A stretch of DNA of 64,000 nucleotides from Macrocystis pyrifera (lineage: Eukaryota > Sar > Phaeophyceae > Laminariales > Laminariaceae). The notes under the pieces are model-generated. The model had not been told where the DNA came from. It did not search any database and saw only the letters and a list, made by a program, of their open reading frames with translations. A program made the translations under genes and the position numbers. Below, one piece after another: positions 1-44,670 of this stretch (its first letter is position 1; each line of letters begins with the position of its first letter). The stretch lies in the NCBI GenBank assembly GCA_031763025.1, contig JASSKH010000003.1:13278734-13342733 (forward strand). Reading direction: 5' to 3'.

Positions 1-77
1 ATCAACACACAAGGCGAACGCGTGTCCCAGACAGCGAACGCACTGAACATCCCGGCCCAAAACTAGTATACGTCAAT

Positions 78-3000
78 CTAACGCATCCGCTGACCATCAG
101 CTACGGTTAATTGGTCGGGCGGATGAGTGGTGGGGGGGGGGGGTGCATTTGCATTTCGTAGTACTCCGCGTGCTAGTCCTCCGGCCTGATGACGCTGAAG
201 GCACCAGGATCCTTGAGTCGCTTTCCGTGAAGTGGTGTAGAGGGACGGAAGGAGTGTGATCTTGATCGGGCCCGGGTCGTCGAGGAAGCGGACGATGTAG
301 GAGTGAGTGGAGGAGGTGTCGGTCGAGGCGCGTGGGGCAACTTTGCCCAACCACCAGAGACCATCGCGGGCCTTGTACCAGAGGTGTGCCCCGGCAGGTA
401 GAGGTGAAGAGCTGAAACGGTGAAGCCAGAGGGTGCGTGGTACGAGGCTGTACCCGGGGGCGAGGAAGATTTCACCCCGGGACCGCGAAAGTTCACGGTG
501 AGCGGCCCCGATGCGCATCTGGCGGTATAAACGGTTGGTCTGGCGGTGCTGTGAAGGGGTGCCCGACCAATAGCGGAGGATGTGGGATCGGTGGAGCTGT
601 AGGTCTCGTTCGTGTTCCCAAGAAGGGCTAAGGAGTCCGGCCCAGTGTGTTTCGTACATAACGGCGAGAACGCCTCCCCGGCCACGAACGAGTTGGTGTC
701 CCGAGATCTGATCGACCTCGAGGCGTTCAGGCGGTGGAGAGATGTCGTCGAAGGTGACGTGGAAGGGCGGGGACTTGGTGGAGAAGGAGCTGAGCACGTA
801 CTTAGTTAGGTCGGCCGGTAGGTGTTTGGGGAGATCGTCGATGTCGTCGGGGTTCCGGCAGGGCTTGCAGCGGAGAACGGAGACGCGGTGCTTGGAGTCC
901 CGCCCCGGCATGTCCGAGGGAAGGTCGACGTAAAGGAGCTTGTCGTGAAGGGGCCGTCCATCCGGGACGGCTGAGGCTGGTGCTGGGCCCACGGCAAGAA
1001 TCTTGAACGGGCCAATCCAGTTGAAGGAGAGTTTGGTCTTGAGAACGGTGGCGTCGGTGCCTTTCTTGGCGCCCTGGCGAATAGTGGCAGCGGTGTTGTA
1101 GATCCATGCCCAACCGCCGACAGAGAACGGAGGGGAAAGGCGGAGGGCGTCCATGATGGGGGCGTTCCGGCGGTCGAGGCGTGAGACGTAGACCGCGTGG
1201 AGTTCCCGGACGGCGCGGTAGGCGCGTTGCTGACGACCAGTAGCGAGGTCAATGTAAGCGAGCTGGTCCCGGTTGAGGCTTTGATGTCCGCCGATGTTGG
1301 GAGCGTCGAACACGGTGAGGGGGGGGAGGCGAGGTAGTCGGCCAATGTGCACTTCGTTGGGGGCCAGTCCGGTGGCGGCGCTGACGGAGTTGTTGTAGGC
1401 GCTTTCGATGTGAGGAAGATGCAAATCCCAATCGTTTTGTAGTTCGTTGCCGACCATGGCGAGCATCAAGGCCATGGTGTGATTGACGCGTTCGACGCCG
1501 CCGTTGGTGCAGGGGTGGTAGGAACTCGTGGAGATTTTGTTAATGCCGAGGCGTTCGTAGAGGGCGCGGGAGAGTTTGGCGCAGAATTGAAGGCCGTTGT
1601 CGGAAAGGAGAGTGACGGGGCATCCCCAGAGAGGGATGTAGCGATCGACGAGGATGTCGGCCGTGCCGGATGCTGTGAACTCGGCTTCGGTAGTGGCGTA
1701 CATGTCGGCGCGGCGGCTGAAACGGTCGGTGAAAAGCAGGATGTAGGCGTTGCCCCGAGGCGTGATGGGTAAGGGCCCGAAATAGTCGACGCTGACGAGT
1801 ATACCGGGGCCGTTAGGTAGCGGCAGGGAGAGGGTGGGCCAACGAATTGTTTGGCGCGAAGACTTTCGCGCCTGACACTTGAGGCAGCGGCGGAGCCACC
1901 AGCGGGTGGAGATGTCCATGCCGATCCACCAGTAGAACCGCATAAGCATGCTGAGTGTCCGAGAAACACCCAGGTGGCAAGAGGTGGTGGAGTGGCAAGT
2001 GTGTAGGACCCACGGTCGCATCAACATTGGGACGTAAATGCGAGGTGGCGATGTGAGGGGTTGCGGCGTAGTCGTACGAGGTTGGCCCAGGGGAGTCACG
2101 TGTGGTCGGTGAACAAGAAGGACTGTGTCGTCGTCGGTTGTGTGCAGCTGGCCTTTCGCGGCGAGGGCGAGGACCTCCGAGAGAAGTGGGCGACGGTTTG
2201 AGGGGATGTAGTCTAAGAGGTCGCCCGGTGGTGGTGAAGGTGAGCCCAAGGAAAGATATCGTATGGTAGCTGAGCAAAGGGGTTCGGTGCGTTGTTCGCG
2301 CGCCCAATCGGTGGAGGTATAATGCTCAACGCAGGAACTAAGGTGTGGGTCGTCAGCAGACCGGACAACGGGTTCAGGTAGTGGGAGTGGTTGAGTAGGG
2401 GAGGGCGGGGGAGAAGGCCCTGGGGCGGTGGACTGTGGTGGTGGCAGGGACACTGGTGGTGTAGCCGTCGCTGGTGAGGGCGAGTCTTGAGCGGCACCGC
2501 GACGGGCTGCATCCGGTCGCCGAGGCAGTGGCCTGGGTGCGACGGCAGGTGGACGGCGGTGGGTTGGTGGAGGTCTTGAGACTGCCGCAGTTGACGATCG
2601 ACGGCCAAATCCGTAGTCCGTTGGAGTAAGGGGGGTCCCTGCAGCAGCGGCGGAACGGTGACGGGTCCGAGAAGAAATTAGGCTTGACGAGGTACGAGGA
2701 GTGGCCGAAGGTGAGACGCCCAAGGTGGGCGATGGGGAGACGAAGGGTGGCCTGAAAGCCACACCAGCAGGAGCGCCAGCGGTCACGGCGGCTTTCTCGG
2801 AGCTGGAAGGCGATTCGGCGATGGAGTCGAGGATAGAGAGATGACCGACGAAGGCGCTGCGAAGCGAGTTGACGGTGGGGTCTTGGGCAAGGCGGGGGCC
2901 GGCGGGAAGGCTGCGAGGCGGTCCGGCGGCGGGGTCTTGAGCAAGGCGGGGGCCGGCGGGAGGGCTGCGAGGCGGTCCTGCGGCGGGATCTTGAGCAAGG

Positions 3001-3224
3001 CGGGGGGCGGCGGGAGGGCTGCGAGGCGGTCCAGCGGCGGGATCTTGAGCAAGGTGGGGGCCGGCGGGAAGGCTGCGAGGCGGTCCAGCGGCGGGATCTT
3101 GAGCAAGGCGGAGGCCGGCGGGAAGGCTGCGAGGCGGTCCAGCGGCGGGATCTTGAGCAAGGCGGAGGCCGGCGGGAGGGCTGCGAGGCGGTCCAGCGGC
3201 GGGATCTTGAGCAAAGCGGGGGGC
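78..3224 (-). CDS. pol segment: integrase with chromodomain and Tudor-like C-terminal tail
   Basis: After the Pro/Ala-rich repeats there is an H-H-C-C zinc-binding domain (CHSTTSCHLGVSRTL ... CLKCQ, about 1,870-1,995). The DDE catalytic core follows: Asp in VSVDYFGPL (about 1,785-1,812), Asp in LLSDNGLQF (about 1,585-1,612) and Glu in GVERVNH (about 1,482-1,502). Further on is a chromodomain-like stretch (ERLEVDQISGHQLVRG ... THWAGLLSPSWEHERDL ... HILRYW, about 590-740), the module that directs chromovirus integration to modified chromatin. Beyond it (about 240-390) lies HLWYKARDGLWWLGKV ... YIVRFLDDPGPIKITLLP, whose G-x-W-W-x-A/G-K-V and Y-x-V-x-F-x-D-D pattern resembles Tudor/Agenet folds. 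The ORF stop is at 78-80. The catalytic residues are all present. The chromodomain call is good; the Tudor-like call is by pattern only. Confidence 0.9.
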   Translation of the reverse strand, partial: APRFAQDPAAGPPRSPPAGLRLAQDPAAGPPRSLPAGLRLAQDPAAGPPRSLPAGPHLAQDPAAGPPRSPPAAPRLAQDPAAGPPRSPPAGPRLAQDPAAGPPRSLPAGPRLAQDPTVNSLRSAFVGHLSILDSIAESPSSSEKAAVTAGAPAGVAFRPPFVSPSPTLGVSPSATPRTSSSLISSRTRHRSAAAAGTPLTPTDYGFGRRSSTAAVSRPPPTHRRPPAVAPRPLPRRPDAARRGAAQDSPSPATATPPVSLPPPQSTAPGPSPPPSPTQPLPLPEPVVRSADDPHLSSCVEHYTSTDWAREQRTEPLCSATIRYLSLGSPSPPPGDLLDYIPSNRRPLLSEVLALAAKGQLHTTDDDTVLLVHRPHVTPLGQPRTTTPQPLTSPPRIYVPMLMRPWVLHTCHSTTSCHLGVSRTLSMLMRFYWWIGMDISTRWWLRRCLKCQARKSSRQTIRWPTLSLPLPNGPGILVSVDYFGPLPITPRGNAYILLFTDRFSRRADMYATTEAEFTASGTADILVDRYIPLWGCPVTLLSDNGLQFCAKLSRALYERLGINKISTSSYHPCTNGGVERVNHTMALMLAMVGNELQNDWDLHLPHIESAYNNSVSAATGLAPNEVHIGRLPRLPPLTVFDAPNIGGHQSLNRDQLAYIDLATGRQQRAYRAVRELHAVYVSRLDRRNAPIMDALRLSPPFSVGGWAWIYNTAATIRQGAKKGTDATVLKTKLSFNWIGPFKILAVGPAPASAVPDGRPLHDKLLYVDLPSDMPGRDSKHRVSVLRCKPCRNPDDIDDLPKHLPADLTKYVLSSFSTKSPPFHVTFDDISPPPERLEVDQISGHQLVRGRGGVLAVMYETHWAGLLSPSWEHERDLQLHRSHILRYWSGTPSQHRQTNRLYRQMRIGAAHRELSRSRGEIFLAPGYSLVPRTLWLHRFSSSPLPAGAHLWYKARDGLWWLGKVAPRASTDTSSTHSYIVRFLDDPGPIKITLLPSLYTTSRKATQGSWCLQRHQAGGLARGVLRNANAPPPPTTHPPDQLTVADGQRMR

Positions 3225-3320
3225 CGGCGGGAGGGCTGCGAGGCGGTCCAGCGGCGGGATCTTGGGCAAAACGGGGGCCGGCCGGAAGGCTGCGAGGCGA
3301 TCCAGCGGCAGAGTCTTGAA
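2870..3320 (-). repeat. 54-bp tandem repeat (about 8 units) within pol
   Basis: About eight near-identical 54-bp units encode an 18-residue Pro/Ala-rich repeat (RLAQDPAAGPPRSLPAG in the integrase frame). The unit length is a multiple of three, so each strand-frame stays open, and shifted frames read SRSRRWTASQPSRR or LKIPPLDRLAALPP. The unit near 3,217-3,223 has one extra G relative to its neighbours, which explains the frame change between the RNase H and integrase segments. It lies exactly between RNase H and integrase, so it would form a flexible spacer. Copy number is prone to expansion, contraction and assembly error. Confidence 0.9.
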
Positions 3321-4937
3321 CGGCGGTGAAAGTCACAGTAGAGCAGGGGGTAAGAACCAAGTCCGAGTTGTTCATACGTGGTCCGTGTCGGCGGAAATCG
3401 CCAAAGTCGTTTTCGGTGCAGGGGAGTGGTGGGATGGTGTCGCAGGGAGCGGTTGAGGGTGAGACAAGCCCACCCAAACCGATGCCCGGGGTGAAGGGGT
3501 TGATCGGAGTAAAACCGCAGGCTTGGATAAGGTAGATACCTTTGGTGTCGGGAGGGGTGAGGCGGTTGGGTCCGGTGCGGTCGAGATCGGTCGCTGGTTG
3601 TGGAAGTCGCGACAGGAAGTCGGCATTACCATTAGCTGAGCCTTTCCGATACTCCAAGGTGTAGGAGTAGGCGGAGAGGAATTCCAGCCAGCGTTGGACG
3701 CGAGCGTTGTGTTCACCGACTTTAGCGATACTCTCAAGTGCCTTGTGGTCAGAGTAGATGTGGAACTTGGTGGACCAGAGGTGGCCGCGGAGGCGTTTGA
3801 TGGCCCAAACGATGCTACCGGCTTCGAGGTCGAGGGGGGTCCAGGACCGTTCGTTGTCGAGAGTGGTGCGGCTGATAAAGACGATGGGACGGACGGAACC
3901 GTCGAGTTGTTCTTGTTCGAGAGTCGCGCCAAAGCCGTCGATGCTGGCGTCGCAGTAGAGGCGAAAAGGTCGGGAGTTGTCGGCAACGGCATCCCAGTCT
4001 GGGTAGACCAAGACCGGAGGGGTAGCAAGTTCGTGGAGGATCTGGCGAACGATAGTTTCCATTTCCGGCGTGAAAACGAACTTAACACCTTGTTTGAGCA
4101 GGGCGTTAATGGGTCGGAGCCGAGTGGAGAGATTCTTCAGGAATTTACGGTAGTATCCTATGCCTCCGAGGAGTGAGCGCACTTGCTTGGTGTTCGTAGG
4201 CATGGGCATCTGAGTTAGGGCGGCAACCTTGTCGGCGTTAGGGCTAACGCCGGAGGAGGAAATGGTGTGTCCCAAAAAGTCGGCGCTGGTAGCGCCAAGC
4301 TTGGCTTTAGACGGGGATAGCTTGAGGTTGTGTTTTCGAAGGCGTTCGAAAAGGGAGCGGATATTGGCGACGTGGGCCGCAGGGTCGGGATCGAAAACTA
4401 TGACGTCGTCGAGGTAGGCCGCTACGCGGTCAAGATCTTTGATGACCTCGTTGATGACCTTGACAAACCAGCCGGGCGCGGCGCTGCTGCCTTGGGGCAT
4501 GACGAGCCACTCGAAGAGTCTGGTGGGCGTGCAGAAGGCGGTCAGGGGTATGGTGTCGTTGTCGATGGTGATTTGGTGGAACGAAGACACGAGATCGAAC
4601 AGGGAGAAGATACGGCCTTTACCGAGGGAGTCGAGAACCTCGTCGACGCGGGGGATGGGCAGTTGGCCCAGGGAGCTGATGGCGTTAAGCTTTTTGTAGT
4701 TCACGGTTATCCGAACATTGCCGTCTTTCTTGGGAATGGCGACCATAGGGCTGGCGTACGGGGAAGTGGAGTGTTGGATCAGACCGGCAGCCAGATATTG
4801 GTCGAGAACAGCGTCGGCCTTTTTGGCGAGGATAGGGTTGATGCGGTAAGGGCGGGAAAAGACGGGGGCGCTGTCCGGGGGGATGGAAATCTTGAACGGA
4901 ATAAGGGAGCACGAGCCGAAGTCGGTTTTGGACGTGG
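3225..4937 (-). CDS. pol segment: reverse transcriptase and RNase H
   Basis: The reverse transcriptase palm and fingers are clear: MVAIPKKDGNVRITVNYKKL, then the PIPRVDEVLD and FSLFDLVSSFHQI blocks (the first catalytic Asp in SLFD), the LFEWLVMPQGSSAAP block, and the catalytic YLDD box at about 4,402-4,416. RNase H follows at about 3,960-3,620: the LYCDASIDGFGATL start, FISRTTLDNERSWTPLDLE, then IYSDHKALESI and NADFLSRLP. The pattern is that of Ty3/gypsy elements. After RNase H comes a linker of about 90 residues with no recognised domain, which runs into the 54-bp repeat array, where the frame changes again near 3,220. It copies the element RNA into DNA and removes the template RNA. Confidence 0.93.
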
Positions 4938-4944
4938 AAAAAAA

Positions 4945-6261
4945 CGTCGGGAAACTCGCACAGAACGTCCCCCAGAGCTGTGATGACCGAGGGGGACCAA
5001 CCAGAACCGCGGAGGTCGAAGGAGATTTCGCGGAGGTGTAGCGGAAGTCGGTCCCAGAGGCGGAGGAAGCTTGTCCGTTGGTCGGCAGTTAGGCGTTCCA
5101 GGAGTTTGGGGCAAGGGGTCTTGGGGGGATCCGCGGGGGGTGTACCGTCGTCATGCACGGGGATGTTGTCGTGCAGGGCGTGAATGTCGATAACAGCTGG
5201 GGCTGGAGGTGACGTTGCGGGGAGACCTTGCAGTGCTGATACCGGAATTTGTATGAGGGGAGAGGAGGAAGTCCCCAGAAGGTCGCCTGGTTCAAGATCA
5301 GTGAATCCCGAGAGCGGGATGCTTTGGTAGCCGTTGGCGACGAAGATTTCGGTTTCGGAGTCAAGGCCGTCGCGGGGAAGCATGTCAACGAGGTAGTGGC
5401 CGGTGGGTGCCGGAATGCCGGAGGGACGCACCAGATTTACCTGGACGAGAGATGGCGTAGCCGAAAGTGAGATTGCGTGAGCGCCGGCGAACTCGAGGTG
5501 TAGGGTGTCGGGAGAAGGTCGGTGGTCGTGGATGAAAGTGGAGAGACCATGCTTGTAAGAAGTGGTTAGGGAGAGCTCGCCAAAGAGCGGTCGCGAGGGG
5601 AGGCGAGGCAGGGTTACGTACGTGCGTTGTTCGAACCGCATCCAGCTATCTCGTCCCAGTAGAACGGGGTGTTGCATAGTCCCATGTGGCACTATGCACG
5701 CCCATACGGCGAGCTCGGCGGAGGGAGTGTTGTCGTGTAAGAACTGGATGCTGAGTCGGACGGAAATCGAAGTGAGGAGCGGAGCGGATTTACCAAAGCC
5801 GCCCCAGGAACGAGGAGCATCGTGTCGTTCGCATATGTCCGACGCAGCGTTGTTGTGCTTCATACGGGCCCAAGCTTCAGCGGAGATGAAGGTCTGGGGG
5901 GAGCCGGTGTCCAAGAGAGCTACAAGGCCGTAGCGGTTGGATGCGGAGGGTCCACTGTGTACTCTGATCCTGGTCGTGAAGGAGGCGTCGTCGATGGTAA
6001 CGATACCGCTCGAGAGGCCTGGCCCGTGTTCGGCAATGAGGGAGGGGAGCGCGGAAGGGAGAGCAGCTCCGGACGAAATGGCAGAGACCAATGCGTGCGG
6101 AGGAGTGGCCTCAGGAAGGAAAGGGGGCCGTAGGTGATCCAGCGTGGAGTGCGGTGTAGAAGCTGGAACGGTTGCGCTGATCTCATGGATCCCATTTTCG
6201 GAGGGTGAAACGCGAGAGGCGCGGGGGGGGGGGGGTGGGAGTAGAGGGGGGGAGGCAAGCT
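4945..6261 (-). CDS. pol segment: retropepsin-type aspartic protease and linker to RT
   Basis: This frame continues from the NADAR C-terminus through a Pro-rich linker to a protease core. VALLDTGSPQTFIS (about 5,890-5,925) carries the catalytic D-T-G-S triad motif of single-domain retroviral proteases, and the segment PHGTMQHPVLLGRDSWMRF (near 5,640-5,695) fits the second conserved hydrophobic-G-R/D loop. The enzyme would cleave the Gag-Pol precursor. The frame then runs on to CEFPDVFF, where a run of seven A on the plus strand (4,938-4,944) shifts the frame by one. Past that point the original frame is meaningless, while the adjacent frame continues the conserved pre-RT region (SRPYRINPILAKKADAVLD). 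Confidence 0.82.
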
Positions 6262-7638
6262 GGTGGCGGATCTTCATGAGGATGTCGCCCAACAAGTTGA
6301 GTCCCGGCCAGTGTGGAGGTTGTAAGGCTCGCGTATCGTTACACCTGAAGCCTATGCCCCAGACGAGGTCGTAAGGACTTGCTTCGGCGAGGAACTTGTC
6401 GCCGGTGTCTACGAGTTGTTGTAGTAAAGGGGGAGCCGAAAACTTGGCGAGGTTGCCCTTGAAAACGATGTCGTACCGATGTTGTGCCCAAAGCTCTTGA
6501 TTAAATTGGAGACCGAGCGTCCGAGGCGTTTTTGTTGTGCGGGATTCGGAGAGGACATGATCATCCGGCGAGCTGATGTGTCGCCGAAAAGCTTGGCCTT
6601 TTCCGACATCATGTACTGTTCCGCACAGTTGTAGTGCTCGTTATCTACGGTGAACGTCGAAGGATACCACTGGGAAAAAACCGAGGAATGATCCCAAAAA
6701 AAAAGAATTTGGGAGGGGCTCAGGGTCGAGGGGAGTGGAGAGGGGGACGTTGTGTGGGACGTTGTCGGGGAAGGCGTGGGTGAGACGACTTCGCTCCCCG
6801 AAAACGTGTGGGGTAAGGTCGATTGTGACGAGGCCCCGGGAGGATGTACGTGACGGCGAGACGCTCGTGACAGAGCACCCTGGGAGTCCCTGCTAACAGC
6901 ATTTAACGTATGCGGAGGAGGGAATAACTCGGAAGAACATGCGGTGCCTGTAATAGTCCGTGACCGGGGTGTGGGTGTCGGTACAGGTGGCTCCTGGCAT
7001 AATCTTGGTGACTTGGTCGAGTCTTCCGCGGGTGAATCCGCGGGAAAACCGTCCCTTGGGCCCAGGGAGAGTGGTGTGGTCAGCACGGGGCGGGCAGCTA
7101 CGAGTCCAGGAGATCCTGCAGAACCAACGGAGGTCGAAGTATGTGCTGTCCGGGATCGACGGACGCCGGTTGACGTGTGCCGATAACATCGTTCGTCAGA
7201 GGACGTAGATGAGTTGGGAGTCGATGGCCCTGGGGGAGGAGCAGAGCCGGAGAGGGAGTGGATACCGCTGTTGGCCGTTGTTGTCGTGTCGCCCACAAGA
7301 TTGGCAAGATCCGCAGACATTTCGGCAATGTTGGGCAAGGCGCGGCGTCGCGCATCGACTGGGGACACCGAGGGGAGCGTTGAGGGAGTGCTCGGTGTGC
7401 CCGCCTCCTCCTGCCCACACCTCAAACCAACCGCTTGAACAAGGGAGCCAACCCTAGATCGAGGGGTTGATATTGAAGATAGGTTAGAAGGGGGGGGGAA
7501 AGAGGGGGAGGGGTCGGGAGAATTAGTAGAGCCGGCGGCCCTTAAACAATACGCTGCCCGAGGGTCCAGAGAAGTACCTGGCGCGGTCGCGTGTAGTGCC
7601 GCTGGTGAAGTCGCGAGCGGTTCTTCACCATCGGCTGG
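6262..7638 (-). CDS. N-terminal part of pol: low-complexity linker plus NADAR (YbiA-like/DUF1768) domain
   Basis: Directly after the gag TGA the same frame is open for about 230 Ser/Pro/Thr-rich codons, then enters a NADAR domain (about 6,713-6,262). Visible hallmarks are FFWDHSSVFSQWYPSTF, CAEQYMMSEKAKLFGD and QKRLGRSVSN. After a one-base shift near 6,525 the adjacent frame continues with GNLAKF, EASPYDLVWGIGF, and W-G-N-LLGD-LM-R at the domain end, all matching the family. NADAR proteins process NAD/ADP-ribose-linked N-glycosidic substrates, and some remove ADP-ribose from guanine in DNA. Here the domain is spliced into a retroelement polyprotein upstream of protease. No sequence homopolymer explains this particular shift, so -1 frameshifting, decay or a read error all remain possible. 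No in-frame ATG start is evident at its head, so expression by readthrough of UGA is the simplest model (inference). Confidence 0.85.
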
Positions 7639-10056
7639 TCAGTTAGTACGGAAGGTGCCCGGTTGCCGGGAGTTTTGATTGCCTCCGTGTTGTGAAGGAC
7701 CGAGGCGCATGTTAGCTGGGGTAGTGGGGGTCTGGGTTGTGGGACCGGTTACAGTGAGGGCAGAGGAGGGAGGTCCTTGAGGGGAGGGGGGGGTGAGCTG
7801 TGGTGCCGAGTTATCCCGGGAGTGGTGGTTGTTGGGAGAGTAGTTTGTCCACTGAGAGCCTGCAGTACGGTTGGAGTTCCCGTGGGAGCGCTCGTTTTTA
7901 AAATGGGAGTTGGACCGGCGGTTGTTATTGGAATTGCCGGCAGAGTTGTGTCCCCTCGAGTTGAAACGCTTGGAGTAAGAGTTCGAGTTCCGATGGGCAT
8001 GGCGTTCGTACTGTCCCCGACGGTATGAAAGCATACGTTGTTGCCACTGTTGAAAAGCGTAGCCTCCGTCGTTGAGCTGGCCAAGCCGGGGATTGAGCAC
8101 ACCTGACTTGTTTATGAAGGGACTCTGACACGTCTTTACGCTGTGGTCCTGTCCGCCACAGTTGAGGCATACGCCACGCCAAGTGCGAAGAGCAGTCGCT
8201 CTAGCAGTAGCGCCAAGAAGAGGACTCCAGAGGGGGGGGTCGGTGGTCGAAAACGTGGTAGACACCATGTACACTTCGTCGAAGTGTTCGAGAGGCCAGT
8301 GGTTGTAACCCAGAGTGAAAGGGTCAATGTCTGGGGACGTAGAGACGTTCATGACATAGGGGTTGCGTTGGGAGCCTTGTTGGTTTGGGTTGGAATGATT
8401 GCGCGAACGCGTCTGCTGAGCAGGGGCCGATGACGGCGGGGACGACGAAAACGTCGTGTGGCCTCCTGGGGAGGTATAAGAAAAATATTTTTCGCCATTT
8501 AGGGCAGGTGTATTATTCGTAGCGTACACTTCATGAGCCTGCCACATGGCCGAGACCGAAGGGAAAGGTTCTACCGCAGTCATCAATTCACCCGGGTACA
8601 AAACCGGAGTCAAAGCAGGAAACTGTCTACTAACACTGGTACGCACTACCTCTAATACCATGGCGTCGCTGGGCTTAAAGACCTTTTCAGAACCTTGTAC
8701 AACCGCTGTCAACTCCCTCAAAGCCCGCAAATAAATGGAATACACCGTGCCCGTTGGTACTCCGAACGCTTGAAGCTTCTCGAATGCGCGGCCTTGGTCG
8801 CCGTGGTCGAAGTGCGTGCTCAGCAGACGCAAGAGTAGGCGAAAGGCAGACGGGCCGGCATTGTCCTTTTCCCGAAGGTGATCGCGCACCTGTTGTCTCC
8901 GGAGATGTAGTCTTCGTCGGTTGACGAGGAGAAATAGTCGCCAACACTGTGCTTTCGTGGGCGTTGTTCAGGCCGAGGGGAAGGTCCGCTGTTGCTGGAC
9001 CGGGGGCGTGTGGTCGAACTGGACGATGACGCGCGGCGGGCCGGGATGTCGGAGGTGCGGCTGTTGTGGTTGTTGTCGTTGCCATCGCGATCATGGTCGT
9101 CGTCCGGGCGCCTGCGGGTGACCGGTAGGCGGCCGTCCGAGCAACCCATCGCCCGCTGTTGGCGCTGGCCGCGGGAGGCGTTATATTCTGCCACGGTCGG
9201 CCAAGTGTGGTCGTATGTGGAGTGAAAAGCCCTCAAGATGGTGACCAATCTGAGTAGTTTGGCACGCACGACGTCGTCGGTCACATTAGGTAGAGATTCC
9301 AGGGCGTGCCGGAGGGTGGTTGAGGCGGTAGAATGATAGAACCCTTTGATGGCGGAGGCAGCCGACGAGATGGCTGCCCGCCTGTCCTCTGGGACATGGT
9401 GTGACGATATTAATTGGCGTATGGAAACGTGTAAAAACGCGACGTCAGAAAACTCCAAGACAAACCCCAGCGGGGCAGGGTTTCTCGTGGGAGAAGTGGG
9501 GGGAGGCGGTGTGGCGGGAGCTGAAGAGTCGGCCGGGGGAGTAGGGCCGGTGCTGGGAGTCGAGGCAGCGGTCGAAACCGCGCGGAAGGGAGTGGGATCG
9601 AGGCCTTGAGAGGCCAGAGTTAGGGCATGTTTGGCCCTTAGTGAGGCCACCAGTTTCTCGGCGCGGTCGATCTCGTCCCGCTCCCTCGCCTGTCGCTCCT
9701 GTAGGAGCCTCGAAAGGCGTGCTTCACGCCTGGCGCGTTGCACATTGTTGTCTTCGAGCCACGCCTGTAGTTCCGAGATGGACGGCTCGTCCTCCGCAGG
9801 TGTTGTTGTTGCGGCGGGAGGCGCAGCTGACGTGGTGTCGGCCGAGGCCGGGGGTCGCTCTGGAGAGGGAGTGGCGAGGGAGTTTTCCGAGGTGAGGAGT
9901 GTCGGAACAGGGGGGGCTGTTGCGGTGGCTACCGGGGTAGGGGTGAGAGGTGTTTGTTGTCCCATCACCGTCGTTTGTGTGAATGCCGTCATCCTCATCA
10001 CCGGAGGACTCCGGCCCAAAGTCCACGCCATCCTCTTCATCTTTCACGTTTACCAT
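7639..10056 (-). CDS. gag: Gag-like protein of the Ty3/gypsy element (one frame break)
   Basis: Two overlapping frames make up gag. The first (about 10,056/10,040 down to 8,820) has an acidic start, a Pro/Thr/Ala-rich stretch, then a charged helical segment with heptad character around 'QERQARERDEIDRAEKL'. The second (8,889-7,639) holds a helical capsid-like segment and a zinc knuckle CLNCGGQDHSVKTC (C-X2-C-X4-H-X4-C, near 8,130-8,172), followed by an Asn/Ser-rich tail. The frames join by a one-base shift near 8,890. Two ATGs are candidates: 10,056 (context AACAATGG, acidic peptide) and 10,040 in the frame that carries the rest; using the first would need another shift near 9,950. The zinc knuckle is the nucleic-acid-binding signature of retroviral and Ty3 Gag; the remainder is assigned by position. 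It ends at a TGA, after which the same frame stays open into pol. Confidence 0.8.
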
Positions 10057-10639
10057 TGTTGCTGTTGGCAGAAGCCGACGACAAGGGAGCGAAGGGAGGG
10101 AAGGAGGGAGGGGAGGGGAACATGTCTGAGCCCTAAGAGATCGTGCCATGTGGCGTAGCGAGCGGGGTGTGTGGGGGGGGGGGGGCTTGGGGGTGCTGTT
10201 ATCCATGTGCGAGCGAGTTTTATAGTGACCGGTCGCGGTGATGGAGTGTGTTCGTGTGCGCCCTCCGTCCGTTTGAGTGTACTGTAGACTCTTGTGGCGC
10301 TCTGGTTGAAGCCTAGTTATATTTGGGCTCAGGTGGCCCCGCTCGTGTCCCGTGGTGGAAGGAGGTATAGAGATACGACCTTTTAGACCCGTTTGAAGAG
10401 GAAGTGTAGAGACACTTCTGCGCACTTGACTGTAGTAACGGGGTGTAGAGACACTCCGTTTGTTCGCAACAGTATCTTGAATTTCTTGAACGACGCTGGC
10501 AGGCCCGGGGGTTTCGTACTGGGAGGGGTGTAAAAGGGACCCGTGCCCGGGCTGGTTTGGGAGGGCGGGAGTCGTATACCCGGGAGAGGAAGGGGAGGGA
10601 AAAAACCGAAAAACAATAAAAAAGAATGCAAAAGTCCGG
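10057..10639 (-). other. Putative leader/5' LTR region of the retrotransposon; no gene
   Basis: This stretch lies upstream of gag in the element's direction. Reading frames here are open but low in information. It holds a G12 tract (about 10,174-10,187) and three short imperfect copies of a GTAGAGACACT-like motif (near 10,366, 10,403 and 10,445). A 5' LTR end and primer binding site should lie here or further upstream, but with no second LTR in the window to compare, I could not place them. Confidence 0.35.
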
Positions 10640-12421
10640 AGGAAGGTGGGCACGGGAAGGTGGTGTCCGTCGAACGGGTGGAAGAGGGTACCGTACCAAC
10701 CATGTACTTGACTCGCTTTGTGATTCGAAGACAAAACTCTCGGCAAAATCATCCTCCAATTGTTGACTCTGTGTCTGAAGACAGCTGTCGGTTGCTGTCA
10801 GATTCAGAGACCGAATAATTGTACTGGTATTCGCGTCTTCTACGTTGCGAAGTGTGTTAGTAATCGTCAACAGTTCCACTGAATTTTTATCCGGAAAAGA
10901 ATTTCCATCCGTACGGCTCAAAATTTCTCTCTCATCGCCGAAGGTTCCACTATGTTCATCCAAAACTGTACAAGCGTGTACTTCTGGAAAAAAAAATACG
11001 ATTGTGCCTGTCCAAAACGAGTGGTGTAAGGTTGAAAATTTCGTCGTAGTTTTTCAAAGCTGCAAAAGTGTGCAAATCTGGAAAAAAAATACGATTAGGA
11101 CGGCTGGAATTTACGTAAGGTTCGTCGAAAAGTATATCACTCGGGGGACCTGCGTGTTTTGGCATACCTGAAAAAAAAATGCGATTACGACGGCTGGAAT
11201 TTACGTGTGTTTCGTCGAAAAGTACATCACTCGGGGAACTTGCATGTTTTGGCGAATCTGAAAAAAAAATGCGGTTACGGCGACTAGAATTTACGTATGT
11301 TTCGTCAAAAAAATCATAACTCAGGGGACCTGCGTATTTTGGCAAATCGGAAAAAAAAGTGCGATTAGGACGACTAGAATTTACGTATGTTTCGTCAAAA
11401 AATTCATCACTCAGGGGACCTGCGTATTTTGGCAGATCTGAAAAAAAAATGCGATTAGGACGACTAGAATTTACGTATGTTTCGTCAAAAAATTCATCAC
11501 TCTGGGGACCTGCGTATTTTGGCAGATCTGAAAAAAAAATGCGATTAGGACGACTAGAATTTACGTATGTTTCGTCAAAAAATTCATCACTCTGGGGACC
11601 TGCGTATTTTGGCAGATCTGAAAAAAAAAATGCGATTAGGACGACTAGAATTTACGTATGTTTCGTCAAAAAATTCATCACTCAGAGGTCCTGCGTCCAA
11701 AAATATACTCTCCTTGCGAAGTGAAAAGCAGAGAGAGTAGTATTTTGCGAAGGCGTCCGATGAGTCATCGGTGCAAAATATGCTCTCTAAAACGTCACGC
11801 TCGTGAGGTTCCACTAAGTTGGTGAGGGAGGCGGGGGGCACTGCGTTCAGGGTTTTTCTGTGACGCGGTACGTACGAGGTCCAGATAATTTTCAAGCTCA
11901 TCAGGGCTTAACGAAGACCAATGAACTGCGTGCTCTGTCTGAGGGAAATCGGACAAAAATGTAGCATCATCAAACTGTGCGTTGTCCAACTCATCATTCG
12001 TGGACGGAGCGACTACGTCCGTGAGTGGAAGCGGGTGAGGTAACTGCAACCTGTCCATTACACGCGCAAAATGACTATGGTGCGAAGAACGAGGTGCCGG
12101 GTGTTCGCAAAAAGTTGTATACAAGGCCTCATCGCGAGGATATGTTATATGAAAATCGTATGGGCTACAAGCGTCGGTCGGCTCTGTGGGGGTGTACGAC
12201 TGAGATTTTTTTTTCTTCAGCCGTGATAGTTGGTGTGAGTAAGCATTTAACGCAGCGATAGTCGCTATCGGTGTCGACATGAGCTTATTTGCATCAGCAA
12301 CAGAGATGTGCTTTTCAGCGACGTCTGGTTCGTCGTCGAAATCCAAACTATAAATAGCTTCATGAAAAAGGATGATCTGAGGTGAGATCACTACGGAAAG
12401 CTCGTCAGACCGGTCGACCAT
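10640..12421 (-). CDS. Unknown acidic protein with 30-residue tandem repeats; frames broken at poly-T runs
   Basis: An ATG at 12,421 opens about 200 acidic codons with a basic patch (LKKKK) and a DELENYLD segment. Near 11,830-11,900 the coding look moves to the next frame (LTNLVEPHERDVLESIF), which enters the repeat array. There each 90-bp unit reads about 30 residues such as GPLSDEFFDETYVNSS followed by RPNRIFF. After the array it continues as VLDEHSGTFGDEREILS and an acidic Ser/Thr/Asn-rich end, near 10,700. The breaks fall at the poly-T runs of each unit. I recognise no family. It has the retrotransposon's orientation and sits just upstream of gag, so it may be an extra ORF of that element or a separate gene beside it. 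The opposite strand is also open across four repeats, so coding itself is not proven. Confidence 0.4.
10985..11700. repeat. 90-bp tandem repeat array, about 8 units with variable A-runs
   Basis: Units of about 90 bp share the core ACTAGAATTTACGTATGTTT, then CTGCGTATTTTGGCAGATCT and a poly-A run on the plus strand. A-run lengths by unit are about 9, 8, 9, 9, 8, 9, 9 and 10. A 9-A unit is exactly 90 bp and keeps frame; 8- and 10-A units shift it. The right-hand (higher-coordinate) units are nearly identical to each other, and the left-hand ones more diverged, as expected of expansion from one end. Confidence 0.92.
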
Positions 12422-15400
12422 TTAGAAACGCGCGGACGCGAAGGCGGAAGTTATTTCACAGGCGCAGGCGTGCGCGCTACGGCGGTCGTCTCTAGAAGCG
12501 GGCGCAACGCGCGCGTTGCGTTACGGTGCAGTGCTACCCAATGGAGAACACGAACGCTGGTAGACAGAAAGACAAAGACAGAAAAAAAAAAAAAAAAAAA
12601 AGGAAGAAAGACAAGGTACTCTAAAATGCAGTGACTCGACTCATGCCAAAACAAAAAAAAAGGAGGAAGGCTCACACCTAAAGGCAGAGGAAGGCTCGAA
12701 GAACAGGTCGAAGCGGTGGCCACGAGCAGAGATGTAGTCCGTAAGACGCCGCCAAGTGTGATGTGCGAGGAGAGAGAGCAGTAAGGGTTCCAAGGGATGA
12801 TGATCCACAGAAGAAGTGTGACACAGGTATCTGTGCTTGGTCAAACTCAGACCTAGTTCTTATTGGAGTTCTCGTATTTTATTGGTGCGAAGCTTGCTCA
12901 AAAAGGGGCAAGTGAGAAGAGTGAGAAGGGAGGGGGGGGGGGGAGTAGATGCTTTTTGAAGCCAGAAGTATCATCTGGCTTCAACCGGCTATAATCTACT
13001 GGCAAGGGTGCATGCTATATCCTCAACTTCAATAGTGCAACACTCCGTAAGGGTGCATGCGTTACCCTCGACTTCAACAGTACAACACCTCGTAGAACCT
13101 GACGAACATACCACGTGCGTACATCTCTGTCTACTCGGCTACTCAGATGCTAGTCTGCGTACCATGTCCGCGAATACAAATATCTTAATCCAAACGGGAT
13201 ACATACGTGTACGAGGAATACTAGCACTGCGTACCAGATACTACAACTACGAAATATCTTATTCCAGACGGTAAAAGGGATACGTGTACGGAAGAATACT
13301 AACCTGCGTACCGGTAATACAAATACAAGATATCTTATTCCAGACGGTAAAAGGAATGAGATCCAATTACTAGAATAATATCTAACGGTCCCTACTGCTG
13401 GTTGGTCTATATACTATAAAGCAGGGTACTCTATCACACTACCGGTGTTTTTGACAGTCCCGTTGAGTAAATCGAGGTTTTTCGGCAAAAAAAGCCAGTT
13501 CTGAGACCCCTTCAAAAATTTCCCATAATAGTTGGTCTTATAGAGGACATTTGGTTTTTTCAATTTGATTTGATTTTTTTTTTCTACTTTAATTTGCATC
13601 TGATTAGCCGACGAGTGAATCAGGCAGGATTCTCAAGGCAAATTAGAAAAAATCAATTTGAGTGAAAAGTCTTTTGGGACTTTTTTCGTGCGATTTTTAT
13701 AAAATTCAATTTCGAATTTGGGAGTTGATCAGCCTTGATGTAGCACGTTCACGGTTGGTCAACACACCCGCTGGAGTCGGGGTGATTCTTGGCCGCTTCG
13801 GTGACCACGGTCGAGGCGATAAAACGCGAACCTCAACGACAGGCGACCGGAGCAATAGCCGCGCCCACGGTCACAGACTATAGCACATCGTATCCCGGCG
13901 GTGGCGCCTCAAAAATATGTCATGGCGGCCGCAAGCCCAATTTTTCGGCCTACCCGATCGGCCAACCATCACGAAAACCGAGCAAAATGAACAAAAAAAA
14001 AGAGGATACGCTCGAGACCTCGATAGCTGCATCACCGTTGCTGTTCCGCACGTGGCGCTTGAGGGCTTACTCCGCCCGCCCAAGACACCCTGAGAGTGAT
14101 AGCTTCCTATCCTGCGCCACCAAAAAAGAAAAAGAGGCTGGCGGCGGCGCGCACGCGACAACGCAAACCTTGGCTCTCGTCTACGCTCGTCGCTGTTTGT
14201 CGGCTGGGCGTTGTGTGACGCGGTGCGTTATTCCAGGTTGTTTCGAATTCCTTTTTGTTTGACAGTGAATGCGCCGCTTCCCGATAGGATACAAACACGT
14301 TTTTTTATCGAAATCAAATTAAAATTCATTAGCTTGAAATTTTAATACCAAATAACAAAATTTAGCGTTCCCCGTTAATATGGCCCCCAACGCGTTGTTA
14401 CGCGGAACACATTGCCGTAACTTTTTTTTTTAATGCGTGACTTTGTTGTGTATATATCCTTCGAATTGTCATGTTATATATTACTCTCTGCGACTTCGAG
14501 GGGGGGTCCACTGGCGTGGTTCGAGAGCCGCGACACCGGCCGCTGACTCTCGTTGCCTATCGTACGCTGGTACCCGGGATTCCCCCCCCCCAGCCGACTG
14601 GCCGGGGCTCTAACAAGCACAGTCTCGGACGACCGAGACTTCTAATGGTAGTAAACCATTGACATACCCCACTCTCCCAGTGAAAGCCCCGAATTGCTAT
14701 CAGTTAATCACAAACAATAATAAAAGTATAATACGGTGTGGCCAGCACCATGTGGCCGCTCCGTTCCACCCACCTTTGAAAGAGGAAAGGGGCGGGTGGG
14801 TGGGAGAAACCACAACAGTAGCCCTAGCCTCTAGGCCTATCAATCGGCAGCGAGCAGTGCCGTGCTCTACTCGCGCACCAATCACGAGAAGCTAGGAGGG
14901 GGCACGGGACGAGTGTGGCCGTTCTTCTCTTCTCTCTGCCTATGAACAAATTAAGCCATTTAGTTTCCGTCGGTAGGGCCCATGTCTATAAATGATTAAT
15001 TCCGTCGGTTGTGAACAAAACAGGCATCTCACGTGAACTTAGAGATACAACGCATTTGTTATCGCCTATCCCCGGTATCAGAAAGCTCCGGAGAACTGGG
15101 AGGTCATCTACAGTAGTTTTTGTAGTTTTTGTTGGCATTTACGTTTCGTGGTTTGGATTTTCTGTTACTTCGTAATGTTTTTGGGTTTTGGGTATTGGCA
15201 CTCACGCTACTTGTACAGGTGGTCGGATTGCAATTGTAGCAACAAAAAATGTTGACTAACTATTATGTACGTATCGTGACACCTGCAGTAAGTTTGGATG
15301 GGAACTTTGCTCAGTGTATGTTGCGTTGTCCGCCATACTGACAGCGTACGCGGCACACGCCGCGCTTAACATGCACTCACCTATAAATATATTAATGCCT

Positions 15401-15775: not shown

Positions 15776-16340
15776 ATATATATAGGTTAGGTTGGCATCG
15801 GTTGGCGACGACGCTGTAAAACACGCCTCTCACTGCGTGAGCTAGACAGCCAGGGTACCATTTTCTTTCTTTTTTTTTTGGCGGTTACTACGGCTGGCGG
15901 TCAAGTTAGGTAATTTTTGTGCGGGGAGAACCTTTACTCCGCACAAGGAGGATGATCGCATCACGTAGTGTGCATATGGTGAGGCACACACGAGGCAGTT
16001 ACATAGTACACCCATTGCTGTCTCTGGAAGTGGACACACCAGAAATTAAATCAATTCATTGATGCTGTCATCCATATGCAAGAAAATCCGCCTTTAGAGC
16101 GGTTCTTCGTAGGATGCAGCTCACCCTTCATGCGACTCGCCCAACATCTCACGGCGCTTCGCGCTTGGTGCAAGCAATGTCGGCCTGGTCGGTGAAAACC
16201 CGACGTGCTCCGTCCCGGCATTGTAGGGATGCGAGGGTCTATGGTCATACGACGGCGGCCATGCATGATAGTGAGTACACCCCCCCCCTATGGTCATACG
16301 ACTACGGCCATGCATGATCATGAGTATACCCCCCCCCCCC
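15776..16340 (+). repeat. Dispersed repeat R1, full-length copy 1
   Basis: About 560 bp that aligns along nearly its whole length with 33,536-34,058. Shared landmarks are GGTTGGC near the start, a T-run followed by GGCGGT, GAGAACCTTTACTCCG, GTCATCCATATGCAAG, GGATGCAGCTCACC, GGTGAAAACCCGAC, and an end with GGCCATGCATGAT followed by a C-run. No ORF is conserved between copies, so it is non-coding and non-autonomous. In this copy the last 45 bp or so (TATGGTCATACGAC to the C-run) is present twice in tandem. Confidence 0.85.
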
Positions 16341-16530
16341 CCCCTCTGGGTATCGAAAATGGGTAGAGGGGGGTCAGATTTTTTTCTTCGTGCACCCCTG
16401 ACCCCCGAAAGTACGAACGAAGAACTAGTATATGTATACGAGTATATATACATATTAAAGCCGTAGTACGCGATCGAAGCATTACACATAGTTTGCAAAC
16501 ATGAGTTTCGACCAAATCCTCGATCTCACG

Positions 16531-23200: not shown

Positions 23201-24114
23201 TAAGGCTTCAGGTGGTATATATACGTATTTTTTCTGTGTCAATCAACACGTTAACGATTTCTTCCATGTCCGAGGCAGTGACCACAAACAGTCTAATGTC
23301 AAAATACGTTATCTCTGTAGGGTTACCTTGTTTACGTTCTCGATGTTTCAGAGTGGCGAGTCGTAAACCACTCTTGGTCAAGCGTCTTAATAAATGTCAG
23401 GCGCTCAGTGTCACATATGCCTAAAACTGTGGTGAGTATGATACGACGATGAGTTAAGCCAGCTGCACGCAGAGACGCGTGACTCTTTCGACTACAGAAA
23501 CTAGGTACGTTACTCCATGCTAGGTGACGGACTGAAATAGTGCAGGAGTGGAGTTGGCATTTTTTGCTCCAAAAGTACTGCTCATACGGAGATCGTGTCT
23601 TCTACCAACCATAGGGCCAGTTCAGGTGTTGAAAAACCCCTTCGTTCTGCAAGGAGTAGTGCCATCGACTTGAACCGCAACTTCAAAAGTTAATTTCGTG
23701 CAATATGTTGTAAATTAAACAGAAATGACGGCCAAAACGTCGGTTGCAGAAGCAGTATGGGCATGTTTGTCCAAAGACAGGTTCGAGTTAATTCCTCTCA
23801 AAATCCACTCTGCAGTGGGCTATTTACGAATCCGTAGTTGCAGTCGAAATTACAAGGTTTTTCCGGAGGCTTTGATGCTGAAGACAACGCTTAAGCCACG
23901 CAAAGAGCAATGTGAAAGGTGCCTGTACTACGAGGGTAGTAGACTAGGGTATTTGCTAGCGTTGTATGGTTTTTAGTTGTTTACGTGGTTCTACGTGAAA
24001 TACGCGGCCTCCTTTGCAAGAGGATCGTCCTATGTTTTCGGGGCCAAGATTTAGGTCCTGGGAGATTTCTTTCCATCCGCCCGCACAGTTTCGCCATTGC
24101 TGTAAGGAATCAGG

Positions 24115-24364
24115 TGGGGGTGTACTCATGATCATGCATGGCCGTAGTCGTATGACCATATATCCTCGCATCCCTATAATGCCGGGATGGAGTGCGTCGG
24201 GTTTTCACCGACCAGGCAGATATAGCTTGCACCAAGCACGAAGCGCCGTGAAATGTTCGGCGAGCCGCATTAAGAGTGAGCTGCATCCTACCAAGAACCG
24301 CTTTTGAGGCGGATTTTCTTGTATATGGATGACAGCGTCAATTAATTGATTTATTGTCTGGTGT
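24115..24364 (-). repeat. Dispersed repeat R1, 3' fragment
   Basis: The reverse complement matches the right half of R1: GGCCATGCATGAT end, GGTGAAAACCCGAC (seen here as GTCGGGTTTTCACC), GGATGCAGCTCAC and GTCATCCATATACAAG. It is truncated relative to the copies at 15,776 and 33,536, and is flanked by a G-run on the R1 3' side. Confidence 0.8.
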
Positions 24365-25304
24365 GGGGGGGTTGTTTACACCTAAAGCTAAATGCAAGCT
24401 AAATGAAAGCTACTGTAAATGGCGGTGGCATGCGTAGGAGGGGGGACATTGCCACCTTTGGTCGGCGATAGGATGGTTTTTTTTCTGCTCTATGCAGCGT
24501 GTTGAACAAGCAAACTTGTCTCACTTGCTGCTGCTGCTACTGCTGCTGCTGCTGCTGCTCTTCAAACTTCAAGCGGGGAGGACTGTAGTTCTGACGAAGT
24601 CTAGGTATGACTTTTATGACTCTTTTTTTTTGTGTTTCAGCTTGCCTGTTCTCGCTCATCCATTGTCTTTCTGCCGCGACGGTTGCGGATCATCGAGCGG
24701 CAGTGTGTTATCCACCGCGGAACGTGCTCTGCATGACACCTATTCATGGCGGCAGAGGGAATAGCCGCAGCGAGTGAGGCGACGCATTAAGGAGAACGGG
24801 GTGGGAAAAGTATGACACCCGTTGTAGTGGACAGGGCGTGGATACTATCGTCTCCAGTCCTCGGGATAGCATGTTAAGGTCTTAGTCCGTTGGGCTATTG
24901 GCGAAAGGTTAACCGATCGCCTACACAATCCAAGCCTTATAAAACTCTCCCCCCCTGGAACGGACCGGATATACGGGTCGACGTGCCACCAACACGCGGT
25001 TCCAATTTTGGGGATCCAGAAGTATTATTTTTTTTTTTTTCAGATTCTTGCCATGATGAAATTCACTTTTCTTTTAAAAACTATTTCATGATGGACGTGA
25101 GGTGCGGACTCACGACCAACGACCCATGTCCTGCCGATGAGGCCATACGTGAAGGCATTAGTCCGTTGGGCTATTGGTAAAAAGTTAACCGATCGCCTAC
25201 CCAATCTAAACCTTATAGCAAGCAGCACAGCAGTACAATATCATGAAGCATGAAATAACACATCGTACCAACCACTGCTGTACTACTGTACTACATCCCT
25301 GTAC

Positions 25305-32700: not shown

Positions 32701-34542
32701 TCGTTCGCCCTTCCTTCCTCCCCTCCTCGCCGCCCGGCCGCCCCCAATGCAAAACCAGTGGATTCTTCTTTGGCTTCCTCCTGGGGGTGGTCCAGATGTT
32801 TGTCTGGCTCCTGTACGACAAGCCTTGGACACTGCCAGCGGGAGGCGCGGTAGTGGGCTACATAACCAATTGGCTGGCCATCAAGCTCATCTTCGAGCCC
32901 GTGGATCCGGTAAAAAAATGGGCCCGTTCGTGCTCCAGGGGCTGTTTCTCAAGCGGCAGGATGAGGTAAGCCGTCGCCGACACCCCAAAACCGTCTCAAT
33001 TTTTCACCTTGAGAGCAACCGTTGCAGTGAGAGCGCGAGTCGGCAAATATTGAGGCAAAATCGACGGGCAATGGGAATTTACGCGCTAAAAAATGATGGG
33101 CAAGTGTACAAGGGGGGAGAACGGACGAAACCTGTGACCATGGCTTACCCAGAAGGCTTTTGAGGGCAAAATCCTCCTGCGCGTTGAGCCGGAAGGTAAA
33201 AGTGATGATAAGATTAAAAAAAATAAAGCCAAAATGGTGCGTTTTGTCAACGTTCGTACCTTGTGTCCTCGCGGCGCTTGCTCCGCGAGCATAACTGGTG
33301 AACGGACCCGAGGATACGCTGCCGACTGGCGGCGGTACGCGTTAGAGCTAATGAGCTAGGCCGAAAACGAGGGGAAAAAAAAAAAAAAACGAAAGCTTCG
33401 TGCAGTGCAGTGCAGTGCAGCGCGTGCCTTAGGTCTCGAAGAGCACATACTGACACGCATCCCTTTTCGTTCGAAACCGACTCAGCAAACCAAACGAGTA
33501 TTTATCACCCCTCCCCCCCCCCCCCCCCCTTATATAGTATATGTACTGTAGGTTGGGTTGGCGTCGGTTGGCTACGGCACCGTCAAACATGCCGCTAACT
33601 ACTTGAACTAGACAACCAGGGTACCGTTTTTTTTTTTTTTTTTTGGCGGTCGGTCGCAGCTGGTGGTCGAGTTAAATCATTCGTGCGTGGTAGAGAACCT
33701 TTACTCCGTACAAGGAGAAGGATCGTATCACGTACCAGGTAGTGTTTATGGTAAGGCACCCAAGAGACAGTTACATAGAACTCCGATTTCTGTCTTTGGA
33801 AGTGGCTACACCAGGAGATAAATTAGCTCATTGAAGCTGTCATCCATATGCAAGTCCGCCTCACAAGCGGTTCTTACGTAGTAGGATGCAGCTCACCTTT
33901 CGTGCGGCTCGCCGGATACCTCACGGCGCTACGCGCTTGGTGCGAGCAATGTCTGCCCGGTTGGTGAAAACCCGACGTGCTCCGTCCTGGCATTGTAAGG
34001 ATGTCAGGGTCTATGGTCATACGAGTCCGGCCATGCATGATATCGAGTACACCCCCGCGCCCCCCCCTCCGGTGCCCGCGCGCTTTTCCCACTGCCTTCT
34101 CAATACACTACATATCGAAAAATCGAAAAGGTGGCCGCAGATTTCGCTGCGTTCTTCTCGGACAATGTCTTGACGTCGAAGAAGTTGTGGGCGTCGATGA
34201 TCGGAGGCTCGCGGGCGGTAGCTTTCCGGGATCTGGTCACCGCACGCGTTGTACCCTTCGTGTCGCGGGCGTCGGCGGTGGCCGGGGCTAATCTGGACCC
34301 CCTGACGGTGAAGGGCCTTGCGGCTAGGGCTGCGGACAAGCTCGTGGACCACGTGCACGTGCTGCACGACTACACGGACAAGACGCTTGCTCTGCGGGCG
34401 ACCATGACCGTGCAGATGCAAAAGGTGAAAGGGGGGAAAGCGGGAGACACCTTTTTTTTACAAGCCAGTGGCGGGTCGTAGTTGGCGCGTGTTCGTTGGT
34501 TTTTGTCGTTGCATGTATAGACCAGACCAGACCGTCTCGTGG

Positions 34543-44329: not shown

Positions 44330-44670
44330 GGGGGGGTGTTCTCGATAGGAGATATGTATTCGATCGCATGCATGGCCGTAGTCGTATGCCCATAGACCCT
44401 CGCATCCCTACAATGCCGGGACGGAGCATGTCCGGTTTTCACCGACCAGGCAGGGAAGCGGGGGGGGGGGCGGGTGTAATCATTGTATTATCATGCATGG
44501 CTGTAGTCGTATATGACCAGAGACCCTCGCATCCCTAGAATGTCGGGACAGAGCACGTTGGGTTTTCACCGACCAGGCAGATACTGCTTGCACTAAGCGC
44601 GAAGCGCCCGCGAGGTGTTCGCGTGAAAGGGTGAAACTGCATCCTGCTAAAACAGCCGCTAGTGAGGGAG
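44330..44670 (-). repeat. Dispersed repeat R1, two 3' fragments in tandem
   Basis: Two R1 3' fragments follow each other on the minus strand. The first (44,330-44,453) runs from the tail to CTGCCTGGTCGGTGAAAACC. A G-run then interrupts, and a second (about 44,495-44,665) restarts from GCCATGCATGAT and runs to GGATGCAGTTTCACCC. The pair suggests insertion of one copy beside another, or template switching. Confidence 0.78.

Follow-up and report, generated by a model that had tools for sequence, protein, structure and literature searches.

Why does a retrotransposon of the giant kelp Macrocystis pyrifera carry a NADAR (YbiA-like) domain within its polyprotein, and what could the domain do there? 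A sequence-only reading of 64,000 nucleotides of the kelp genome (contig JASSKH010000003.1 of assembly GCA_031763025.1), a stretch hereafter called the window, had placed such a domain between gag and protease of a Ty3/gypsy element. This placement is upheld by Pfam matches to NADAR, reverse transcriptase (RT) and integrase, and by the DTGS motif of the protease.

The element is 14,846 bp long and lies on the minus strand, at C211:13277326-13292171 of the assembly. Below, its parts are given in window positions, all on the minus strand. The 5' LTR (TGTGAT...ATCACA, 12757..13438) was located by blastn of the left flank, and the 3' LTR, from C211:13277326, falls just beyond the window's left edge. 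The two LTRs align over 685 bp with 99.27% identity, 4 mismatches and 1 gap (blastn). Together with the CTAC target-site duplication on both sides, they identify a Ty3/gypsy LTR retrotransposon. In sense direction, a leader with an accessory frame is followed by gag, a TGA, a linker, NADAR, the DTGS protease, RT and RNase H. A 54-bp tandem repeat separates these from integrase, behind which comes a stretch with weak resemblance to a chromodomain. The succession of protease, RT, RNase H and integrase is that of Ty3/gypsy elements, with the protease recognized by its DTGS motif only. A candidate primer-binding site, TGGCGGCGTC..., is present at 12737-12754, two bases inside the 5' LTR.

The leader region (10056..12421), delimited by open reading frames and a repeat, contains an accessory frame (MVDRSDEL...) that is broken in the window copy. 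This frame, upstream of gag, encodes acidic 30-aa tandem repeats, for example SDLPKYAGPLSDEFFDETYVNSSRPNRIFF, which correspond to a 90-bp repeat in the DNA. The region is common to both sibling copies fetched for it (94-96% nucleotide identity), and the accessory ORF at 11795-12421 had no Pfam match. Gag (7639..10056, recognized by ORFs and a motif) is spread over several frames in the window copy. It has a zinc knuckle (CLNCGGQDHSVKTC, 8128-8169), its ORF 7639-8967 had no Pfam match, and it terminates in a TGA followed by C (7639..7641). Beyond the low-complexity linker (6703..7638, 312 codons without a stop in the gag frame) and NADAR lies the protease region (5381..6025, DTGS at 5900-5911). 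It had no Pfam protease match and is conserved in four related proteins (P0001-P0004). RT (4261-4737, Pfam RVT_1 9.3e-28), RNase H (3667-3981, Pfam RT_RNaseH 3.6e-29), the 54-bp tandem repeat (2873..3309, 8.1 units, 94% match) and an integrase with H2C2 zinc domain and rve core (1512..2033, Pfam 4.4e-13 and 5.6e-08) follow.

The NADAR domain as a whole occupies about 6254-6702, and it is split over two frames. Its N-terminal half (6505..6702, with the motifs FFWDHSSVFSQWY and CAEQYMMSEKAK) matches Pfam NADAR at residues 313-378 of ORF 6409-7638(-) (E=1.4e-15), and its C-terminal half (6257..6508, EASPYDLVWG) at residues 34-128 of ORF 4685-6640(-) (E=7e-23). With 58.4 and 82.1 bits, both halves exceed the gathering score of PF08719 (35.1), so the Pfam search proposed with the original claim came out in its favor. 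The sole solved structure matched by sequence, 8bau, is also a NADAR. The extent first assigned to the domain, 6262..7638, has to be narrowed, because 6703-7638 is the linker. Likewise, the domain had been described as in frame with gag and directly behind it; the linker is indeed open in the gag frame, but the TGA, the linker itself and a frameshift in the middle of NADAR intervene.

The location of the two halves in different frames means that the window copy is frame-shifted inside NADAR, and RT (ORF 2374-5088) is in yet another frame. Such split frames indicate either a damaged copy or errors of the PacBio assembly in base runs. Across NADAR, 14 of the 16 fetched siblings from the window's own family (family A) read in phase and without a stop. 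In sibling L140 the NADAR stretch contains a stop close to its beginning, and sibling L141 has a simple repeat in place of the upstream part.

The genome searched comprises 537,376,219 bases in 223 contigs. Of 1264 first-look candidates, 150 were scored; all 150 were above the cut-off of the NADAR family, and 126 of them, counted by hand, were without a stop inside the match. When the C-terminal half of the window's NADAR was the query, the 73 leading rows, window included, had at least 81% identity. Around NADAR matches, 20 copies picked by NADAR score were fetched as 9.9 kb stretches, which leaves some element ends out of reach and favors intact copies in families B and C. NADAR is present in 20/20 of these by choice; protease and RT pieces of the window's element were each found in 19, integrase pieces in 17 and a gag piece in 15. 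The RT piece of copy L125 covers 34 residues only, and copy L126, without protease and RT, looks truncated. At least three element families carry NADAR: the window belongs to A, 18 of the 20 fetched copies to B, and L125 and L126 to C. Protein relatives with the same domain order occur in metagenomes. Among six proteins found, the same protease region comes after NADAR in P0001-P0004, and P0002 extends as far as the beginning of RT; P0005 resembles family B and stops short of the protease, and P0006 is not element-like. The latter protein (557 aa) apparently contains two NADAR domains; it has three matched stretches, the last two of which are probably one split domain.

The sequence-only reading had allowed for a single accident, a host or bacterial NADAR gene inserted by chance into one copy, and the frame damage of the window copy would fit such an event. 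The many copies, the same place of the domain in three families and the metagenome relatives with the same order refute this idea, and its probability is practically nil. NADAR appears to be fixed in the element lineage. An enzyme at this position has a parallel in betaretroviruses, where a dUTPase sits between nucleocapsid and protease and is made by frameshifting. The kelp NADAR is likewise an enzyme in the nucleocapsid/protease slot, whereas fold and chemistry differ.

The kelp element joins a known architecture, because Dinatale et al. 2025 described in Ectocarpus a Gypsy lineage in which Pol of every family carries a YbiA-family NADAR N-terminally (PMC12477816). They suggest that the domain came from bacteria and has a role in RNA processing. 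The lineage of Ectocarpus sp. 7, of which Gypsy-12_Ec32 is an example, shares this NADAR position with the kelp element. A putative chromodomain past the integrase is also reported for Gypsy-12_Ec32; the Pfam Chromo matches in kelp (570..719 in the window, E=0.23; E=0.0058 in L125) are both below the gathering score. The alga is a different one, and the two are likened by the architecture as described, not by sequence. A NADAR in a retroelement protein is also reported for ORF1 of Tx1 from Crassostrea gigas, which is a LINE rather than an LTR element and whose NADAR is described as divergent (PMC12477816). No further report of the NADAR-Gypsy architecture was among the matches listed in the open-licence literature, and the main text of the giant kelp genome paper (PMC10498591) is without the words NADAR or Gypsy. 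The main text of PMC12477816 is without the words readthrough, stop codon, frameshift, catalytic, purifying and Macrocystis. As far as these words tell, a second alga, constraint data and a UGA-C with a hairpin are new here, the latter two being absent from that main text. Its occurrence in a second brown alga makes the NADAR a long-kept part of a retrotransposon lineage, and not a curiosity of one genome.

Has the lineage kept NADAR as a protein? The dN/dS comparison suggested by the earlier reading speaks for it. Compared with families B and C, the window's NADAR has a dN of 0.37-0.50, with dS saturated or 1.6. The protease has a dN of 0.43 against B (18 copies) and 0.30 against C (1 copy), RT of 0.16 against B and 0.31 against C (the latter over 34 codons only), and the linker of 0.63 against C. 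Judged by these values, the constraint on NADAR between families is about that on the protease and less than that on RT.

Within family A, pN/pS was calculated from 14 of the 16 siblings, leaving out L140, L141 and the window. It is 1.42 at identities of at least 97% (38 pairs), 0.515 at 93-97% (12 pairs), 0.441 below 93% (41 pairs) and 0.513 overall. We read this fall with distance as a selected lineage that leaves decaying dead copies behind. Positive selection on NADAR was considered and rejected, since pN/pS exceeds 1 solely among near-identical family-A copies, as expected from dead-copy decay. The same family-A DNA read in shifted frames gave 0.70 and 1.29 versus 0.51 in frame, and thus the margin of the true frame over frame +1 is moderate. 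In families B and C, whose copies were picked by NADAR score and thereby favor intact ones, near copies showed no neutral value (0.34 in 34 pairs at 98% identity or more, 0.56 in 120 pairs at 95-98%). The linker was rejected as a constrained protein: pN/pS is 0.99 over five same-length copies, the least alike pair of which is 60% identical and probably out of register. Purifying selection on NADAR in the lineage would best explain these patterns.

Active-site residues are numbered as in the Phytophthora NADAR (PMC11543638), mapped through 8bau alignments with an inferred offset of two residues between chain and paper. The window has equivalents of E43, K50, K75, R79, W89, R93, E125, D130 and W133. 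Among the element rows covering each position, the residue is retained for E43 in 4/4, K50 in 9/9, K75 in 10/13, R79 in 12/13, W89 in 12/14, R93 in 13/14, E125 in 13/15, D130 in 14/15 and W133 in 15/15, where rows P0007-P0014 and P0022 count as element by similarity alone, not by context. E125 is thus missing in two of 15 rows and K75 in three of 13, and the residues for guanine-ADP-ribose hydrolysis are mostly kept in element NADARs. Position 125 is D in BC4488 and H in the phage type (PMC11543638, PMC11125620), and the glutamate at this position groups the element NADARs with the YbiA family. The fold agrees, as seen on a model of the relative P0002. For residues 71-220 of this model, the pLDDT block means lie at 94-99. 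Its best PDB matches, 8bau (E 1.1e-13, TM 0.80 on target) and 2b3w of E. coli YbiA (E 1.3e-7, TM 0.76), indicate a YbiA fold. The Phytophthora nicotianae NADAR (8bau) shares this fold and the active-site equivalents. It is a stand-alone protein and shown to be a guanine-ADP-ribose hydrolase (PMC11543638), whereas the kelp NADAR is fused and known from its sequence.

A proposed tree of element against cellular NADARs gave a partial answer on origin. Among 93 rows, 13 of the 14 element rows form one supported clade (98/94), in an analysis whose bootstrap had not settled. The clade sits among bacterial, metagenomic and viral-contig NADARs, and no sister is supported. P0005 falls outside on weak support, and a single clade of all 14 was not rejected (p-AU 0.333). 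The tree is compatible with one NADAR capture, and acquisition before the element families diverged would be the best explanation. No related element came up when viral contigs were scanned with the window's protease/NADAR frame and with its RT frame. One protein named as a 'NADAR family protein' of a Paracoccaceae MAG (P0007) is 88% identical to the C-terminal half of the window's NADAR; most likely, it represents brown-algal DNA in a bacterial bin.

How might the ribosome reach NADAR across the end of gag? TGAC is found there in 15 of 16 family-A siblings (the exception, L141, has a simple repeat) and in every one of the 14 copies of families B and C that were tried out of 20 fetched. A gag TGA, in frame and followed by C before pol, is also described for fission-yeast Ty3/gypsy readthrough elements (Tj1, Tosmo1-3 and Tcry1; PMC10085805). 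The passages on these elements make no mention of NADAR, and the strong hairpin behind the stop is a trait of kelp family A. Behind the TGA, the linker has 0 stops in the gag frame, while the two remaining sense frames have 6 stops each. A hairpin begins 6 nt past the TGA (7588..7635, with the stem at 7598-7635 and a candidate pseudoknot arm at 7588-7591). In the two family-A copies folded, it has z-scores of -4.30 and -4.75, with 0/200 shuffles as stable, and in the window it is the most stable among 112 TGA-started stretches (sense strand, window 1-12756). Elsewhere the z-scores are weak: family C gives -1.3 and -0.6, and family B gives -0.9 and -1.1. The junction alignment draws its 12 A rows from the window and from 11 of the 15 siblings that have a junction, and adds two C rows; nine rows are distinct, and B contributes none. 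The 12-pair stem and the 4-pair candidate pseudoknot were drawn from the same sequences in which they were then counted, and 93.8% of the cells pair, versus 23-53% when the structure is slid. In two of the pairs, both partners differ between A and C, which amounts to two events at most, and 123 of 500 shuffles also reach two such changes.

The phase of NADAR relative to gag varies between copies. In family A, NADAR is in gag phase in 7 of 15 siblings, and the frame from UGA to NADAR is unbroken in 3 of 15. The domain is in gag phase in 4 of 12 family-B copies, every one interrupted by a stop, and in neither of the two C copies; an unbroken gag-to-NADAR phase occurs in 0/12 B and 0/2 C copies tried. 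NADAR-Pol could also be made by ribosomal frameshifting or internal initiation, with the hairpin either incidental or serving the frameshift. Gag and NADAR are out of phase in 8/12 B and 2/2 C copies, in one B copy the NADAR frame continues without a stop past the UGA in a different phase, as frameshifting would require, and 7/20 copies have an in-frame ATG before NADAR. However, the phase offsets are 0, 1 and 2 within one family, as random indels would give, and the in-phase linker of family A runs 312 codons without a stop in the window and is unbroken in three of 15 siblings. We consider this route possible but doubtful. In family A, readthrough of the stop codon at the gag UGA-C appears to be the best reading, and for families B and C it is only suggested. 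The UGA-C with a hairpin in one family offers a testable account of NADAR dosing and packaging.

Taking these lines together, we regard the region as the part with which Pol probably begins in a Ty3/gypsy lineage of many copies that acquired a YbiA-family NADAR. Ribosomes would read through the gag UGA at a low rate and produce Gag-NADAR-Pol, within which NADAR would enter the particle before being cut free by the protease. Tethered to Gag-Pol, the domain would be adjacent to the RNA genome and the growing cDNA. There, it may hydrolyse ADP-ribose off guanine of the element's RNA or cDNA, whether the adduct is damage or a host mark, and its removal would let reverse transcription proceed. From the retained residues we infer that the domain would have hydrolase activity; it would also be packaged and be needed in transposition. 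NADARs are reported to strip guanine-linked ADP-ribose from DNA (PMC11543638) and from RNA, with E. coli YbiA among the RNA-active ones (PMC11833690). In the hydrolase panel of the latter study, NADARs were the sole family that removed ADP-ribose from guanosine in RNA; a retroelement that keeps such a domain therefore predicts that nucleic-acid ADP-ribosylation bears on brown-algal retrotransposition. The joint explanation, namely a NADAR in Pol under purifying selection, UGA readthrough, and in-particle removal of guanine-linked ADP-ribose that aids reverse transcription, stands in our judgement at an even chance.

Other roles for the domain were weighed against this explanation. The mark may be placed deliberately by the alga on the RNA, cDNA or Gag of the retroelement, and the NADAR would then be an anti-defence enzyme. 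The same enzyme class is present in animal RNA-virus polyproteins, and anti-defence has been proposed for NADAR and macrodomains (PMC9503650); the mostly kept active site and the constraint between families would also fit. On the other hand, no writer of the DarT type was identified: DarT (PF14487), the resident transferase expected of a DarT-NADAR toxin-antitoxin pair, had 0 matches in a six-frame search of the kelp's own genome, with a control that matched in 1/14 genomes. Furthermore, no ADP-ribose mark on brown-algal nucleic acid was found in the literature searched, and the excess of pN over pS among near-identical family-A copies speaks for decay rather than an arms race. We consider a deliberate host mark unlikely. 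The removal of host ADP-ribose, put forward by the sequence-only reading as a possible function, thus retains the support of the kept residues, while the missing DarT and the published guess of RNA processing weigh against it. More specific still, and quite unlikely in our estimate, is the proposal that brown algae ADP-ribosylate guanine of retroelement RNA or cDNA and that this gypsy lineage packages a NADAR eraser via UGA readthrough. If true, this would be, to present knowledge, the first demonstration of a retrotransposon that reverses the ADP-ribosylation of nucleic acids, and an ADP-ribose writer so far undescribed would be predicted in the algal host.

Alternatively, the domain may have lost its chemistry and serve in RNA or nucleotide binding, in packaging or in the folding of Pol. 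The rows without E125 and the location downstream of the zinc-knuckle part of Gag are in line with this, but most rows keep the residues for both binding and catalysis, and there would be no reason to expect E125 in a domain that only binds. It seems improbable. We assign the same low probability to an N-glycosidase acting on small molecules in the particle or the cell, either free ADP-ribose derivatives or riboflavin-like intermediates. Riboflavin intermediates are a reported substrate of E. coli YbiA (PMC11543638, PMC9503650), which means that the substrate cannot be read from the sequence, and the element NADARs are of the YbiA type by their glutamate at position 125. The fusion to Pol, though, points to a nucleic-acid partner, and no riboflavin context was seen.

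Two further observations concern the window at large. Past the chromodomain-like stretch, within 8939-9486 of L125 and 81-719 of the window, a second conserved stretch appeared Tudor-like by eye; a C-terminal Tudor-like fold is not claimed, as the single-sequence model reached a pLDDT of 36 and there was no Pfam match. A dispersed repeat of about 250 bp occurs in both orientations at 16035-16347, 24113-24365, 29132-29395, 33809-34070 and 44330-44608, with copies roughly 80-94% alike.
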